This document shows positions 53,385 to 60,198 of a stretch of 64,000 nucleotides of DNA, piece by piece. The stretch lies in contig NZ_SNZE01000001.1 in NCBI RefSeq assembly GCF_004363775.1, positions 106,860 through 170,859 of the forward strand. Direction: 5' to 3'. The position numbers were made by a program, and so were the translations under genes. The notes under the pieces are model-generated. The model saw only the letters and a program-made list of their open reading frames with translations, was not told the DNA's origin and ran no database searches. Within the stretch, counting starts at the first letter, position 1. Each line of letters begins with the position of its first letter. The stretch comes from Hydromonas duriensis (GTDB taxonomy: Bacteria; Pseudomonadota; Gammaproteobacteria; Burkholderiales; Burkholderiaceae).

Positions 53385-56213
53385 TTACTCATATTGACTC
53401 ATAGGGATGCAAGCGCAGAACAAGTTTCTATCGCCATATACATTGTCCACGCGCGCAACGGGAGGCCAGTACTTGCGCGTGCGCAAAGAGCTGACGGGGA
53501 AGGCGGCTTGCTCGCGTGAGTACGCATGCGTCCATTCGTTGCCGCACACCACGGTAGCGGTATGCGGGGCATGCTTAAGTGGATTGTCTTCGGGGCTGAG
53601 TTCGCCGCGCTCCACCTGAGCAATTTCTGCGCGAATGGTTGCCATTGCTTCAATGAAACGGTCCAATTCGGCTAAAGGCTCGCTTTCTGTTGGCTCAATC
53701 ATCAATGTCCCTGGCACAGGAAAACTCATGGTCGGCGCGTGAAAGCCAAAGTCCATCAGACGCTTGGCGATGTCGTCAACGGTAATGCCCGCCGTGTCTT
53801 TGACGCCACGCACATCAACGATACATTCATGAGCCACCAAACCACTTTCAGCTGTGTACAAAATTGGGAAATGCTCGGAGATGCGTTTGGCTAAATAATT
53901 GGCGGATAAAATAGCGACTTTTGAAGCTTCGGTTAAGCCCGCCGCGCCCATCATGGCAATGTACATCCATGTGATTGGCAATACGCCTGCGCTGCCATAA
54001 GGTGCGGCAGACACCGCGCTGATGCCGTTGGCATCACGTTGGTAACCCACAGCATTCAGGTTCGGTAAAAATTCAGCCAAATGCGCAGCGACACAGACAG
54101 GGCCAACACCGGGGCCGCCACCGCCATGAGGAATGGCGAAAGTTTTGTGCAGATTTAAATGAGACACATCGCCGCCGAACTCACCAGGGGCGCATAAACC
54201 GACCATGGCATTCATATTCGCACCGTCCACGTACACTTGACCGCCATGCGCGTGAATGATGTCGCAAATGTCCGTGATGCTTTTTTCAAATACCCCGTGC
54301 GTCGATGGGTAGGTAATCATCAAAGCGGCGAGATGGTCGCTGTGCTGTTCGGCTTTTGCTTTCAAATCCGCCACATCAACGTTGCCGCGTTCATCGCACG
54401 CAACCACAACCACACTCATGCCAACCATCGCGGCAGACGCAGGGTTCGTGCCATGCGCCGATGCGGGAATCAAGCAAATGTTACGGTGCGACTGCCCACG
54501 GCTGGAGTGGTATTTTTGGATGATGAGCAAGCCCGCATACTCACCTTGCGAACCTGCATTCGGTTGTAAGCTTACGGCAGCGTAGCCTGTTGCCGCGACC
54601 AACATCGCCTCAACTTCATGAATCATCGCGCGATAACCGACTGTTTGGCTATTGGGCGCAAAAGGGTGAATCTGGCTGAACTCGGGCCACGTCACAGGCA
54701 GCATTTCCGAAGTCGCGTTCAACTTCATCGTGCATGAACCCAAAGGAATCATCGTGCGGTCAAGCGCGAGGTCTTTGTCGGATAAATCGCGCAAATAACG
54801 CAACATGGCGTGTTCAGAATGATGCGTGTTAAATATAGGATGGGTCAAAAACGCAGATTGGCGTTGTAACGCCGCAGGAACGGTATTCTCATCCAACGGA
54901 GCCCATGTCGCACCGAATAATTTAAGCAACGCTTGAGCATCCGCAACAGTGGTCGTCTCATCCACCGACAGGCCGACATGTTCAGCATCAATCGCCCGCA
55001 GGTTAATTCCAGCCGCCTGCGCCGCTTGATGCAAGGCCGATGCGTCGTTCACCTTCAAGGTCAACGTGTCAAACCAAGTGCCGTTCACCACGCTCACACC
55101 CGTTGATTTCAACGCCGTGGCAATAGAAGAAGTCATGTGATGCACACGTGCACCAATTTTTTTCAAACCATCCGCGCCGTGATACACCGCGTACATGCTC
55201 GCCATAATCGCAAGCAAGGCCTGAGCCGTACAAATATTAGACGTCGCCTTGTCGCGGCGGATATGCTGCTCGCGGGTTTGCAATGCCAAGCGCAAAGCAG
55301 GCGCACCTTGTGCATCCACCGACACACCCACCAAACGACCAGGCATCGAGCGTTTAAACGCATCACGGGTTGCCATAAACGCAGCATGAGGGCCGCCGAA
55401 ACCAAACGGCACGCCAAAACGTTGGGTATTGCCAATCACAATATCCGCACCCCATTCGCCAGGGGCTTTGAGCTGCGTGAGCGCGAGCAAATCCGACGCG
55501 GCGATCACCGCCTTGCCTTGCTCATGAGCCTTTTGAGCCAGCGCACTGTAATCCATCAACGCGCCACTGGCGGCGGGATATTGTACGAGCACCGCGAAAC
55601 AGTCATTCGTCAACGACTCATCGATATTAGCGACCACGCGCACCTCAATATTGAGCGGCAGCGCACGGGTTTGAATCACCTCAAGCGTCTGCGGGAAAAT
55701 ATCTTCCGAGACGTAAAACACATTCGACTTCAACTTGCTGTTGCGCATTGCTAAAGTCATCGCCTCCGCCGCCGCCGTCGCTTCATCGAGCATCGACGCG
55801 TTGGCAATGTCCATCGCGGTCAAATCAATAACCATTTGTTGAAAATTCAACAAGGCTTCCAAACGCCCTTGAGAAATTTCAGGCTGATACGGCGTGTAAG
55901 CCGTATACCAAGCTGGGTTTTCTAACACATTGCGCAAAATCACCGCAGGCGTGTGCGTGCCGTAATAACCTTGGCCGATGAAGCTTTTAAAAACTTTGTT
56001 TTGTGCCGCATGTTCACGCAAGCGAGCCAAAGCGGACTCTTCCGAGAAGCCCGAGCTGAACTCGCCTAACGTCATGTCGCTGCGGCGGATGTTGTCGGGC
56101 ACAACGGCGTTGATGAATGTGTCTAACGACTCAAAACCCAGTGCTTTGAGCATATGGGCTTGGTCAGTGGTGGATGGGGCGGTGTGGCGGGTGGGGAAAG
56201 TGGTTGAGGTCAT
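53385..56213 (-). CDS. gcvP: Glycine dehydrogenase (decarboxylating), P protein
   Basis: 942 residues, a single-chain P protein. The pyridoxal-phosphate lysine lies in [18 protein letters not shown]. The N-terminal half starts with [15 protein letters not shown], and [14 protein letters not shown] is another landmark. It decarboxylates glycine and passes the aminomethyl group to lipoyl-GcvH. The start lies two bases after the stop of the AlbA_2 gene, with AAAGGA inside the end of that gene. It is separated from gcvH and gcvT by two unrelated genes. Confidence 0.97.
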
Positions 56214-56215
56214 GG

Positions 56216-57331
56216 TTAAATTTCCTTTTGATTTTGAAATTCGGTATAAATATCTAGTAGCTCGTAAAATAAACGGTTTTGCTCTTTATTATCCAGAGTA
56301 GGTTCATTGCTTTTAATATTCAACTTCGTCTTTGAAAAGCTAAGGAAGTCTTGTAATTGATTTTCTGATTCAAAAACTGGAATATCAAAATTTTGAGAAG
56401 AAGTGACTCTGTTCAGGTTTTTAGAGTCGTCTCTATCCTTGAAATGATTGAGCATGAAATTGTGAAAACAATATTCGAAACTATCTTTTAAATAATAATA
56501 AATTCGTCCACTGCCAACCGCCGACCAATCTGGGTTGACGATGTTTTTTTTGCCACCATCAAAATTGCAGCACACACACTGGAACAGTTTTGTGTTGTGA
56601 TAGTAAAAAGTCCAGCAGTAAGTGTTATTGCCTGACGTGTATGAATAACCGATTTCACCTCTTGCCCACTCCAGTGTCTCGCAGCCTTGTTCTGCAAATG
56701 CCTCTGTACTTTGAATGGTGAATTCAGGATGATATTTATAATAGAATTTGCCCTCATCATCGTGAGCCCAGTTTTCGGCATCATTCAAATAAAGTCGCAA
56801 TTTCTCCAAAGGGGGCTGGGTTAAGCCGAAACGTTCTCTCCACATTTGCTCAATTTGTTTTGAGTTTGCGGATGAGTTTTGCGGGGTGTTGCTGTCCATT
56901 ACTCGCGAGTAGATGTGATGAGCACGTATGACGACTTGTTTCGAGGGCTGTTTTGGCTCTGTTATGTCTTTGGTTATGTAATATGGCTTGTGTGGCTGAT
57001 TTTTGATTGTCAAAACGTCAATCTCTTTGTCGTCGTATTTGATTGATTTTAAAGAAATATCTGGGTAAAGTTGGTCAGAGAATGACTGGGCTCTAAACGT
57101 GTCAATAAGTTGCGCTTGTGTTTTCCTGTTTTTGCTAGGAACACCAATGACTTCGCCGCTGTTGTTGACGCCATAAATTAAAAAACGGTCGCCTTGATGC
57201 TCGGTATTCGCTAGACAAATAATGTCGTGAATTAATTCTGCATTGTTTGCGTGATGAGACTCTTTGAAGTCCCAATATTGCCCTTCTTTTTTGCTATTAA
57301 TCAACTCTTTAATTGTGTCTTGAAGTTCCAT
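56216..57331 (-). CDS. AlbA_2 (Schlafen-like) domain protein inside the gcv genes
   Basis: 371 residues. The N-terminal domain (about 10-140) has [28 protein letters not shown] and then [10 protein letters not shown], typical of the AlbA_2 putative DNA/RNA-binding domain. The C-terminal 230 residues are not recognised; they are rich in aromatic residues and Asn. The gene is AT-richer than gcvP and has a weak ribosome-binding site. It ends two bases before gcvP, so gcvP may be translated by coupling. AlbA_2 proteins include transcription regulators and defence-associated proteins; which of these applies is unknown. Confidence 0.75.
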
Positions 57332-57413
57332 TGTTTTGCCAAATATAATGTGCCTAAATTTTTAGGTCACAATAAACGTTTTGTGAATGCCTCACTGCAG
57401 TTTCAAAAAACCT

Positions 57414-57479
57414 CGTCATTGCGGGCTTGACCCGCAATCTCCGTGTATCGGGAGATGCCGTGTCGAGCACGGCATGACG
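57414..57479. repeat. 66-nt cloverleaf-like palindromic element
   Basis: Every base fits a four-way junction. Outer stem: CGTCAT (57414-57419) with ATGACG (57474-57479). Arm 1: TGCGGG-CTTGA-CCCGCA (57420-57436). Arm 2: ATCTCC with GGAGAT (57437-57456). Arm 3: GCCGTG-TCGAG-CACGGC (57457-57473). It lies after the stop of the GIY-YIG gene (minus strand). Its first 28 bases recur inverted at 57924-57951. Confidence 0.8.
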
Positions 57480-57535
57480 CCGTTTAGAGTTGACATGATG
57501 CTGTTTAGGTTTGACATGACGCGGATTGGGGTAGG
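57473..57535. repeat. Three degenerate 21-bp direct repeats
   Basis: Units starting CATGACGCCG (57473), CATGATGCTG (57494) and CATGACGCGG (57515) follow each other at 21-base steps just downstream of the GIY-YIG gene. The first unit overlaps the end of the cloverleaf element. Confidence 0.55.
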
Positions 57536-57551
57536 CGCTGCTTGATGCGAG

Positions 57552-57908
57552 CTAGGTACGGCGCGACGCGGGGTTGGTACCATATGACGCATAGTGTGTT
57601 TTCACTGCATCAATATATTCTTGTGTCACACCAATCGAATCCGCCAAGTCCAGCCAATTTGGGTTCGTTGTCTCAATCAAGTCATTTTTCCATGCTCGTT
57701 TCCAGTTTTTCAGCTGCTTTTCTCGTGTAATCGCATCAATCATTGCATTTGTCGATTCAAAATACACCAATTTATCGACGTTGTATTTTTCGGTAAAGCC
57801 TTTTTGAATCTTGGCTTTGTGTTCTGCGACACGGCGCGTTAAATCGTTGGTGACGCCGATGTAAAGCACCGTGTTGTGTGTATTGCTCATTAAATAAACG
57901 TACGCCAT
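57552..57908 (-). CDS. GIY-YIG nuclease family protein
   Basis: 118 residues. The domain has YVYLMSN then VLYIGVTNDLTRRVAEHK with the catalytic Tyr/Arg, and the Glu in FESTNAMIDAITREKQLKNWKR. It is one of the short single-domain GIY-YIG proteins, close to the YhbQ/UPF0213 type. The last ten residues (around YGTNPASRRT) are read from the adjoining repeat zone. AAGG precedes the ATG. It sits between gcvH and the AlbA_2 gene and is flanked by inverted repeats. DNA cleavage activity is likely by family but not proven. Confidence 0.88.
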   Translation of the reverse strand: MAYVYLMSNTHNTVLYIGVTNDLTRRVAEHKAKIQKGFTEKYNVDKLVYFESTNAMIDAITREKQLKNWKRAWKNDLIETTNPNWLDLADSIGVTQEYIDAVKTHYASYGTNPASRRT

Positions 57909-57923
57909 AGTTGCCTTGGTTGG

Positions 57924-57951
57924 GGAGATTGCGGGTCAAGCCCGCAATGAC
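57924..57951 (-). repeat. 28-bp inverted copy of the cloverleaf element's first part
   Basis: On the minus strand it reads GTCATTGCGGGCTTGACC and continues to ATCTCC, identical to 57415-57442. It ends 15 bases upstream of the GIY-YIG start codon, so the rest of the cloverleaf is missing here. Confidence 0.85.
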
Positions 57952-57979
57952 TCGTGTGCAGTCATGACGAGGGTTTCAT

Positions 57980-58348
57980 TTAACCATTCTGTGCTTCGTA
58001 ATCCGCTTCACTCAACAGACCATCCAACTCAGCCGCATTGCTCGGCGCGATTTTAAATAACCATGCGTCATACGGTTTTTCGTTGACTTGTTCGGGCGTG
58101 TCGGCAATCGCATCGTTGCGCGCGGTGATGGTGCCGCTGATGGGGGCGTAAATGTCGCTGGCGGCTTTGACTGATTCGACGACGGCGACGTTTTCAGTGG
58201 CGTTGACTTGACGGCCAACTTCGGGCAATTCGAGAAAAACGATGTCGCCAAGTGCTTCTTGTGCGTGGTTGGAGATGCCTACAGTGACGGTGCCGTCGGT
58301 TTCGAGGCGTGCCCATTCGTGGCTGGCGGCGAATTTGAGTGTGCTCAT
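57980..58348 (-). CDS. gcvH: Glycine cleavage system H protein
   Basis: 122 residues from the ATG with an AGGAG site; a frame 12 codons longer is open upstream but lacks that site. The lipoyl-lysine is Lys61 in ESVKAASD. GcvH carries the aminomethyl group from GcvP to GcvT on its lipoyl arm. It lies 101 bp after gcvT in the same direction. Confidence 0.96.
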
Positions 58349-58449
58349 GTTGTTGCTCCTAAAGGTAGGGTGGGCATCGCCCACCGTTGTGAATGTGTTT
58401 TGCTTGTACAGGCTGTGTATTGCCTGTTGCGCGAATCGTGTGTTTGTGG

Positions 58450-59559
58450 TCAGACCGCGATGATTTTACCATTGCGTACAAATGGCATTTTTACTACTTT
58501 TGCGTTGAGTGCTTTGTCGCGGATGATGACTTGTACGGTGTCGCCAATCGTCACGCCCAGCGGCAGGCGGGCAAAAGCGATGGATTGTTGCATGGTCGGG
58601 CTGAATGTGCCGCTGGTGGTTTCGCCTTCACCGTGGGCGGTTTTGACGGTTTGGTGACTGCGCAGAATGCCTTTGTCTTGCAAAATCAGACCGACGAGTT
58701 GCGCGGTGGCACCGTGGCTTAATGCGGTTTTACCGATGAAGTCGCGCTCGGATTGTAAATCGACGGTCCATGCCAAGCCTGAGTTGAGCGGGTTGACTGT
58801 TTCGTCCATGTCTTGACCGTATAAGTTCATGCCTGCTTCGAGGCGCAGTGTGTCTCGTGCGCCTAAACCTGCGGGGCGAACGCCTTGTTCGGCGAGTTGT
58901 TGCCACACGGTCGCTGCGATGGTGGCTGGTACGGCGATTTCAAAACCGTCTTCGCCTGTGTAACCTGTACGCGCGACCATCCATTCACCATGTTCGTGTT
59001 CGATACGGGCGGCGTTGAATGGTTTGAGCTGTTCAGATGGGGCTTGTGTGAAAGGGAATGCGGCCCAAACTTTGGCGCGGGCATTCGGGCCTTGAACGGC
59101 GATGAGTGCAAAATCAGGGCGCGGGTTGATGTTGAGTCCAAACTCGCCGACGGCGTTTTGTTCATTCAACCATTCAATGTCTTTGTCGGCCGTGCCCGCG
59201 TTGACCACGAGGCGAAAGAAGTCTTCGCTGAAATAGTAGACGATGAGGTCATCAATTACCCCGCCTTCTGGGCGCAGCATGCATGAATATAAGGCTTTGC
59301 CTGAGATTTGGAGTTTATCGACGTTGTTGGCAAGGAGGTAGCGTAAAAAATCACGCGTTTTGTCGCCAGTGATGTCGACCACTCGCATGTGCGAGACGTC
59401 AAACATGCCCGCATCGCCGCGCACTGCATGATGTTCTTCGATTTGCGAGCCATAGTTGACGGGCATGTCCCAGCCGCCAAAGTCAACCATGCGTGCATGT
59501 GCAGCCAGGTGAGTGGAGTGTAAAACTGTTTGTTTTAAAGCAGAAATAGCAGAAGTCAT
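58450..59559 (-). CDS. gcvT: Glycine cleavage system T protein (aminomethyltransferase)
   Basis: 369 residues. Landmarks are [24 protein letters not shown] near residue 24, GMFDVSHM and [12 protein letters not shown] (folate-binding domain). It transfers the methylene group from lipoyl-GcvH to tetrahydrofolate and frees ammonia. It is the first gene after the glycine riboswitch, so the whole gcv unit is probably glycine-induced. Confidence 0.96.
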
Positions 59560-59611
59560 GAGGTGGCATCCCGGGAAAGTCTATACGGCGTAGACTTGTT
59601 TTTAAAATCCC

Positions 59612-59814
59612 GTTCTGTCCTTGATACCTGAGAGATTGTGGCAAAACGATGTTTTGCGCGCCCCTTCGGTGGTCGGCGACATGCAACGTTGACGTGATGT
59701 GCGACGCTCTCCAGAATAATATAAAGCTGCTTGCTAGTCCTTTTGCCTGAGAGTTTTTGGGTGTTCACCTTCGGCGACTGTCCTTTATTTTGCTTGGACA
59801 ATTCTCTCCTAACA
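59612..59814 (-). ncRNA. Tandem glycine riboswitch upstream of gcvT
   Basis: On the minus strand two aptamers follow each other. The first begins AGGAGAGAAT (about 59812), has CGCCGAAGG and ends CTCTCAGGCAAAAGGAC (about 59737). The second begins CTGGAGAGC (about 59713), contains ACCGAAGGGG and ends ATCTCTCAGGTATCAAGGAC (about 59616). These are the conserved glycine aptamer elements. The tandem form usually switches gcv genes on when glycine is high. About 50 bases follow before gcvT; no clear terminator stem is seen there, so control may act at translation. Confidence 0.92.
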
Positions 59815-59815
59815 A

Positions 59816-60198
59816 GAGGCCACACTTTACGAGTAAAAGGAGTGAAAGTCAAGAAAGGCAAATCAAGCCTAATTAAGATAAACAGGTTGGATTCGTTTAT
59901 ATGTGGCTTGTCAGGCATGCGGTAGAGATATGATAGGGATATGATATGTCTTAAAAAAAATAGCTGATAAATCGTGAATATTCAGACACAACCGCTTTTA
60001 ATCGCTTTTCGTTCTTTGTTTGTGTTGTGGCTGCTTTAAAAATTTAAATTAGAGCTGTAAAATTTGATGAAATCAGGCAAGAATTCATGTACGATTCAAA
60101 AGTTGCAGTGTGTAAAACATATTTTAATCACAATATAAAACCAGATTAAATCCTGATGAAAACCACGGCTTAATCAATTGACACCAAAGGAGTTTCAC
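59816..60198. promoter_or_regulatory. Region between glycine riboswitch and BMP gene
   Basis: About 380 bp, AT-rich toward the right end, without a gene. It must hold the leftward promoter of the gcv unit and the rightward promoter of the BMP-type ABC genes. No single promoter stands out. Minus-strand frames that run through the riboswitch are not genes. Confidence 0.5.

Follow-up and report, generated by a model that had tools for sequence, protein, structure and literature searches.

A short gene for a GIY-YIG nuclease lies between perfect inverted repeats in the midst of the glycine cleavage operon of Hydromonas duriensis, and this arrangement raises the question of whether gene and repeats belong together or have met by chance. 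The stretch of DNA analyzed here, termed the window in the following, comprises 64,000 nt of contig NZ_SNZE01000001.1. A first-pass annotation made from the letters of the window had offered two readings, a mobile unit that may use its own nuclease or a REP-type repeat pair that has captured a nuclease gene. The arms are indeed REPs, but the locus does not stand alone as a mobile unit, and chance capture does not account for it either; it is one case of a widespread pairing of a gene with a repeat. In our best reading, the GIY-YIG enzyme is the missing partner of the CGTC-tagged REPs.

Anatomy of the unit at the gcvH site

The unit and its surroundings contain the following features (window coordinates).

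53385-56213, minus strand: gcvP
56216-57331, minus strand: SLFN/AlbA_2 neighbor gene, outside the unit (profile match)
57407-57419, plus strand: 13-nt arm AAAACCTCGTCAT on the outer side, matching the inverse of 57964-57976 at 92%
57414-57479, plus strand: complete two-arm REP dimer (REPIN-like), composed of arm ATTGCGGG, a 7-nt spacer and arm ATGCCGTG
57415-57442, plus strand: outer REP arm on the left, with a CGTC tag that starts at 57414, stem ATTGCGGG, loop CTTGA and tail CTCC; inverse of 57924-57951
57473-57535, plus strand: three diverged 21-bp direct repeats leading from the REP dimer to the gene, 81% and 71% identical to the first copy
57552-57908, minus strand: single-domain GIY-YIG nuclease gene, 118 aa (Pfam GIY-YIG, E 2.7e-17)
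57924-57951, minus strand: REP arm on the right, an inverted copy of the left one; the tag, here AGTC, is at the end that faces gcvH
57980-58351, minus strand: gcvH, intact beside the unit and outside it (profile match)
58450-59559, minus strand: gcvT
59605-59821, minus strand: two glycine riboswitch aptamers upstream of gcvT

The arms at 57415-57442 and 57924-57951 measure 28 nt each, are 100% complementary as an inverted repeat and stand 481 nt apart, just as the first-pass annotation had described them, and the gene between them is indeed a short GIY-YIG gene. Its placement between gcvH and the AlbA_2 gene in a riboswitch-controlled operon was also recognized correctly, the order on the minus strand being gcvT, gcvH, the GIY-YIG gene, the SLFN/AlbA_2 gene and gcvP behind the glycine riboswitch aptamers. 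The statement that the repeats enclose nothing but this gene needs amendment: the gene lies inside, but the left arm belongs to the dimer at 57414-57479 and the three 21-bp repeats are enclosed as well.

A 25-nt core of the REP is present in two copies in the window and occurred in none of 100 dinucleotide-preserving shuffles of it, even when three mismatches were allowed. Pairing of ATTGCGGG with CCCGCAAT around the loop CTTGA yields a stem of 8 bp and a loop of 5 nt. According to folding calculations, the left arm forms a hairpin of -9.1 kcal/mol as single-stranded DNA (z -4.66), and the region of the right arm (57921-57954) a hairpin of -10 kcal/mol (z -4.11); for the region of the whole REP dimer (57412-57482), -21.9 kcal/mol (z -4.45) was obtained. 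The second arm of the left dimer has a stem (ATGCCGTG) different from that of the outer arm (ATTGCGGG). The outer 13-nt arm AAAACCTCGTCAT is possibly the remnant of a further arm, or a chance match. Among the five genes around the unit that were scanned with profiles, no transposase was found; the first-pass annotation had seen none either, which holds for this neighborhood but not for the genome, where one Y1/RAYT-type match resides on contig C33. The list of repeats for 57200-58200 contains no target-site duplication beyond the features described above.

Likeness to CGTC-tagged REPs

The arms of the window are CGTC-tagged REPs. Excerpts of the survey of this class (Di Nocera et al., 2013, PMC3733652) describe a stem of 8-9 bp starting with AT, a loop of 4-5 nt, a short tail that is mostly CCA, an unpaired tag at one end with the variants TGTC and CCTC, and an occurrence mostly as inverted dimers. 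CGTC REPs are widespread bacterial repeats, and dRS3 of Neisseria as well as RPE-6 and RPE-4 of Rickettsia belong to them (PMC3733652). Held against these excerpts, the window has the tag (CGTC at 57414-57417 in the left arm, AGTC in the right one) and an 8-bp stem starting with AT that is closed by a 5-nt loop. Its tail is CTCC and not the usual CCA, which is also usual in the other loci. Its REPs, too, are repeated mostly as inverted dimers, with heterodimers as in family 2 of the survey. The abstract states that CGTC REPs 'apparently lack a dedicated transposase', and Table 1 marks them as lacking an association with transposase genes (PMC3733652). An enzyme gene for these repeats is not reported in the excerpts of the survey, whereas the window has one nested between the arms.

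We found no paper that pairs a GIY-YIG enzyme with CGTC REPs in different phyla and none joining the terms GIY-YIG and repetitive extragenic palindromic, in a search with most subscription papers and preprints outside its scope. A gene inside a REP dimer or a parallel for the DUF559 genes treated below was likewise not found among the part of the matches that was listed, and DUF559 together with palindromic appeared only in papers that, judged by title, are on other subjects.

The GIY-YIG protein

The window protein matches the Pfam GIY-YIG profile over positions 1-76 of 78. Residues Y16, R26, H30, E63 and N82 are invariant in 30 related sequences, and Y5 is present in at least 90% of them. 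Conserved residues of this type presumably represent the catalytic set of GIY-YIG enzymes, and we regard the five invariant ones as putative catalytic residues. The predicted structure (mean pLDDT 90.5) finds its best matches in UPF0213 protein BH0048 (PDB 1ZG2, E 8.5e-4) and in the N-terminal domain of UvrC (1YD6, E 0.054). A sequence search of the PDB returned nothing at E<=0.01, and NCBIfam gave only weak matches, all below the family cut-offs. The sole other GIY-YIG match in the genome lies in a 643-aa frame that we take to be UvrC. Thirty-two plasmid records, some of them chromosome-sized, match at E<=1e-12 with a best identity of 61.6%. A phage origin was rejected with 0 matches at E<=1e-8 in 50,697 phage records.

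Homing endonucleases of the I-TevI type have the GIY-YIG catalytic fold in common with the window protein, although the structural match to the catalytic domain of I-TevI is weak (E 1.6). Unlike in these systems, neither an intron nor an intein was seen, and a protein of 118 aa is too short to accommodate a DNA-binding domain of its own. We rejected homing, as the presumed target flanks the gene and is not split by it, and whole arms occur uninterrupted elsewhere in the genome.

Ssn, a GIY-YIG family of site-specific single-stranded nucleases with a repeated target termed NTS, has reportedly been described from N. meningitidis in Nature Communications in 2025. The work is said to have found effects on natural transformation in Neisseria, where the cognate repeat reportedly reaches hundreds of copies. 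A homolog from N. gonorrhoeae, presumably Ssn, is 50.6% identical to the window protein over 85 residues and resides among dRS3-type CGTC repeats. Ssn and the window unit alike combine a single-domain GIY-YIG nuclease with a repeated sequence, the presumed target in the case of the unit. Ssn is reported to cut single-stranded DNA. With 8 copies in its own genome and 34 in that of a relative (G003), the window repeat stays far below the hundreds reported for Neisseria. The window protein probably belongs to the Ssn family of single-strand nucleases, and if these accounts of Ssn hold, the locus is a member of the Ssn kind.

The window repeat in its own genome and genus

A search of the genome and of close relatives for the repeat had been suggested in the first-pass annotation, and it yielded counts between 0 and 34 in seven genomes. 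In the 2.43-Mb genome of the window (G000), the REP arm occurs in 8 copies at up to 3 mismatches, while a reversed control pattern occurs in none. Six of the eight copies lie elsewhere and without a GIY-YIG gene; only at the window unit is the gene enclosed. Five of these six are single arms of two-arm dimers whose spacer is short; they reside on contigs C8 (three copies), C9 and C18. The three copies on C8 belong to a 155-bp tandem array near a uvrC-like frame, the copy on C9 lies before a carB-like gene, that on C18 behind an hsdS-like gene and the sixth on C17 (all gene names assigned by eye from the translations). The array region on C8 (31662-31996, L003-L005) holds three CGTC REP dimers.

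Counted in the same way with up to 3 mismatches, the relatives contain 10 (G001), 3 (G002), 34 (G003), 0 (G004), 14 (G005) and 0 copies (G006, a neighboring genus). G001 and G005 are without a cognate enzyme gene, yet they harbor their 10 and 14 copies. The cognate gene is present in G003, the genome with 34 copies, which has a second gene of this kind in addition: the ATTGCGGG repeat goes with the gene beside gcvH, the ATTCCCGC repeat with the other.

GIY-YIG genes and flanking repeats across phyla

A scan of GTDB species genomes returned at least 579 relatives of the window protein, the best 80 of which were taken as a many-phyla set. The records include Pseudomonadota, groups of Bacteroidota, Omnitrophota, Fibrobacter, Patescibacteria and others. 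A flanking inverted pair was sought within 400 bp of the gene, other positions in the same loci serving as controls; 75 of the 80 loci were usable, L062, L091, L117, L122 and L123 being dropped for less than 150 bp of flank. Among these best-scoring relatives, an inverted-repeat score of at least 14 was reached by 50/75 GIY-YIG loci vs 3/375 control positions, and a score of at least 18 by 36/75 vs 0/375. The flanking arms mostly read GTCAT...CCA.

GTC-tagged perfect hairpins are concentrated around the genes of the same best 80 loci: 157 of them were counted in the 76.9 kb that lie no farther than 500 bp from the gene (2.04 per kb) and 38 in 320 kb beyond 1.5 kb (0.12 per kb), a 17-fold difference in density. 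At least one such hairpin is present in 58/80 loci and hairpins on both sides in 37/80. The tags of the nearest hairpins face outward in 73 of 96 cases (p 3e-7). Units delimited by outward tags on both sides (28 loci) have a median length of 375 bp and range from 345 to 521 bp.

Within the order of H. duriensis, 76 of 399 genomes match at E<=1e-10 and 63 at E<=1e-20, the latter with 80 places; the cut at E<=1e-20 was set after the match list was known. Seventy-nine of the 80 places and five from genus genomes outside the sample make up a set of 84 loci, of which 83 were usable (L194 was not). The place left out (L028 in G052) holds a truncated copy with an inverted-repeat score of 11; its genome was counted as gene-bearing. 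Scores of at least 18 were obtained for 51/83 loci vs 36/415 mismatched-flank controls, a control that is inflated by repeat types shared between loci. The remaining 32/83 have no flanking inverted repeat of that score. Close loci reach it in 5/9 cases, and none of the eight loci with more distant GIY-YIG proteins exceeds a score of 11. A short-loop CGTC hairpin is absent in 24 of the 62 gene-bearing genomes scanned, 16 of which still have an inverted repeat scoring at least 18. The association provides a candidate enzyme for the CGTC REPs and predicts, genome by genome, what this enzyme should be specific for.

DUF559 and RAYT-like loci as controls of specificity

DUF559 loci were drawn from 200 genomes of the same order; 30 were fetched and 28 were usable, two being cut by contig ends. 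Within 400 bp of the gene, a CGTC hairpin is present at 0/28 DUF559 vs 46/84 GIY-YIG loci, and a C/T-rich hairpin at 24/28 vs 1/84. In outer flanks, each of the two hairpin types was found in 2/27 cases, and the distant GIY-YIG loci have neither (0/8 each). Flanking inverted repeats with a score of at least 18 are present at 14/28 DUF559 loci vs 0/82 inner controls and 10/112 mismatched-flank pairs. The palindromes of the DUF559 genes (L257-L286; in the genome of the window G000:C29:8906-9220, L276) are their own and of the C/T-rich CCCTCCCC...GGGGAGGG type. DUF559 and C/T-rich palindromes are a second nuclease-repeat pairing, and the double dissociation suggests that nuclease families without relation to one another maintain separate repeats.

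One gap in genus g108 (L129 locus) brings the two pairings together. Eight genomes were searched and the site was found in seven (G353, G169, G380, G268, G238, G297 and G206; not in G325). Four of the seven carry a REP-GIY-REP unit, the copy in G169 with an in-frame stop. In the other three, the gap is occupied by a bare C/T-rich repeat (G238, which is not a virgin empty site for this reason) or by a DUF559-like gene with C/T-rich repeats (G297, recognized by eye, and G206, supported by a profile). Two nuclease-repeat pairs that are unrelated to each other have this gap as a common landing place.

Occupancy of this gap by REP-GIY-REP in four genomes and by other repeats or a DUF559-like gene in three means that hot spots exist, and it is what would be expected if REPs merely gathered in intergenic gaps around dispensable small genes, with no functional link between the two. 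The 6/8 copies of the window REP that lie apart from any GIY-YIG gene fit such an explanation as well. DUF559 genes, however, are also small and accessory and have a different repeat at their sides, and the repeat type follows the similarity of the enzymes (see below), so that we consider a mere meeting at hot spots very improbable. According to the first-pass annotation, a repeat found singly all over the genome and without GIY-YIG genes would have to be seen as an ordinary REP element associated by chance. Gene-less copies do exist, six in number and five of them in dimers, but the inference of chance fails because of the association across loci (50/75 and 51/83), the covariation of repeat and enzyme and the lack of CGTC repeats at DUF559 genes. 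Capture by ordinary REPs was rejected on the grounds of this association and the double dissociation.

REPIN/RAYT systems combine GTAG REPs with a Y1 tyrosine transposase, the RAYT. Like the window, they feature inverted REP pairs, non-autonomous dimers and a gene flanked by its own REP type. The window unit differs in its CGTC tag and in its gene: RAYT loci are recognized by a Y1 gene flanked by REPs, and the unit contains a GIY-YIG nuclease gene instead. Both kinds of repeat and enzyme, CGTC with GIY-YIG and GTAG with Y1, occur in the genome of the window. It is therefore conceivable that a RAYT moves the REPs and that the GIY-YIG gene is a passenger; Y1_Tnp matches were detected in 4/4 genus genomes searched, G000 having one, and G001 has REPs and a Y1_Tnp match without a cognate GIY-YIG gene. 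The RAYT-like gene of G000 (C33:12650-12985, L250), however, lies amid GTAG-tagged repeats that have the form GTAGGGTGGGCA..GCCCACC, and the exact core of the window REP is absent from its 3.3-kb locus. The entry for CGTC repeats in Table 1 of the survey, no association with transposase genes, points the same way (PMC3733652). We regard the passenger explanation as improbable, the GTAG repeats around the RAYT-like gene making this enzyme an unlikely mobilizer of the window REP. Comparison of the GIY-YIG, DUF559 and RAYT-like loci reveals three genes in one genome, each beside its own repeat type. The GTAG-type repeat has a single exact pattern match in the window, at 58365-58385 just upstream of gcvH.

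Enzyme type, repeat type and copy number

In the order set, protein distance predicts the distance between repeat stems (Mantel r 0.55, p 0.001, n=67, with shared ancestry partly remaining; 17 of the 84 loci had no usable repeat head or a low gene score and were left out). The share of pairs with stems within one base of each other falls from 47% at protein identities of at least 70% to 38% at 60-70%, 15% at 50-60% and 0.9% at 40-50%. The many-phyla set, i.e. the best 80 of at least 579 relatives, gave r 0.34 (p 0.0005, n=59, shared ancestry again partly remaining) and r 0.28 for the 1,382 cross-phylum pairs; 21 of the 80 loci were left out for want of a detected repeat, and nine of the 59 had no phylum and were pooled as one group. 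A test with paralogues fell short of significance, the REP of the nearest protein elsewhere being closer in eight cases, farther in six and tied in five. Where this nearest protein was at least 80% identical, the repeat differed by one base at most in 6/6 cases, a subset picked post hoc.

The enzyme is also linked to REP abundance. The common REP type GTCATTCCCGC(N4)GCGGGAATCC is present in 35/63 genomes with the gene vs 44/336 without it (odds ratio 8.3), and shuffling within 24 genera gave p 0.003. Four or more further copies of this type were counted in 13/17 genomes whose gene is flanked by that very type, in 3/21 with a gene flanked by another CGTC type and in 4/24 gene-bearing genomes without a short-loop CGTC hairpin, the last group being the one in which G052 (8 copies, not scanned) is listed. 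At least four copies of the common type also occur in 28/336 genomes without the gene. The enzyme is not needed for the persistence of REPs, as these 28 genomes and the REPs kept by G001 and G005 demonstrate.

A proposed repeat-specific endonuclease nested in its own repeats

The explanation that we consider likely is that the unit is a small gene for a repeat-specific GIY-YIG endonuclease, nested in its own cognate CGTC REPs, which would spread by cutting of single-stranded hairpins and subsequent repair. The enzyme would most likely recognize the REP as a single-stranded hairpin and then cut there. Single-stranded REPs could, for instance, be provided by lagging-strand DNA or by incoming transforming DNA. 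REPs may be kept and spread when cut copies are repaired from intact ones or recombine with them; more rarely, such events would spread the complete block of REP, gene and REP, which measures about 0.35-0.5 kb. The flanking arms would make the gene part of the copied DNA, and the gene-less two-arm dimers would represent the non-autonomous form. Movement by the unit's own nuclease is plausible on this basis. GIY-YIG enzymes hydrolyze DNA and are not known to join strands. This counts against the proposed spread by cutting and repair, as do the non-significant paralogue test and the fact that no insertion was caught among the sites compared below.

A bolder and more tentative extension is that REP-GIY-REP, with its approximately 375 bp, might be a minimal self-spreading element that relies on its hydrolytic nuclease and host repair instead of a transposase and is the autonomous parent of the CGTC dimers in many phyla, with DUF559 as a second, independent case. 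In that case, a general class of genome parasites would exist beside RAYT/REPIN, made up of small nucleases that each lie within palindromes of their own.

Comparison of orthologous sites

An empty site between the neighboring genes in a relative was among the suggestions of the first-pass annotation, and the outcome is mixed. G001, the nearest relative compared (GcvH 93% identical), has gcvH and the AlbA_2 gene about 90 bp apart and lacks the GIY-YIG unit. The gap contains no GTCA/TGAC and thus no REP of the window kind, and the genome as a whole yielded no GIY-YIG match of the window kind. Another short palindrome, GGGTGCAAT..ATTGCACCC, is present in the gap. In G003, however, the unit is present next to gcvH, as in the window. 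G001 may have lost the unit, and because G003 has it at gcvH despite a GcvH identity of 84% only, loss by G001 and insertion elsewhere are equally likely. An AlbA_2-like frame lies between gcvH and gcvP in the window, and a similar frame is found in G001; a gcvP-like frame follows directly after gcvH in G002, G005 and G009, and G004 has another long frame there (all by eye).

The C9 dimer provides no clean empty site, the flank beyond the dimer being unalignable in G001, G002 and G005. Neither a fresh insertion nor a target-site duplication was seen at the compared sites, whose boundaries are too diverged for a junction. Within a genus, the genes often keep their place and the REPs change, a pattern that resembles long residence more than active hopping.

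Genes that remain at one site within several genera would also be in line with a domesticated host function, in which the enzyme regulates DNA uptake or recombination via cutting of REPs and is neither selfish nor mobile. The effects on natural transformation reported for Ssn in Neisseria point in the same direction. An essential role is not what the distribution resembles, being patchy with 63/399 order genomes at E<=1e-20 and without the gene in G001, and GIY-YIG copies are broken by stops in several genomes (e.g. G104, G159, G169 and G400). We see a host function as a real, if less than even, possibility. It overlaps with the repeat-specific endonuclease that we prefer, since recognition of the REP is a step common to both.

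A longer array of REP dimers lies beside a GIY-YIG gene in G003 (C29:1-450, L020), and the contig ends inside this array. Less than 150 bp of contig remain on one side of the gene in 5/80 loci among the best 80 of at least 579 relatives. Genome assemblies may break at these repeats.
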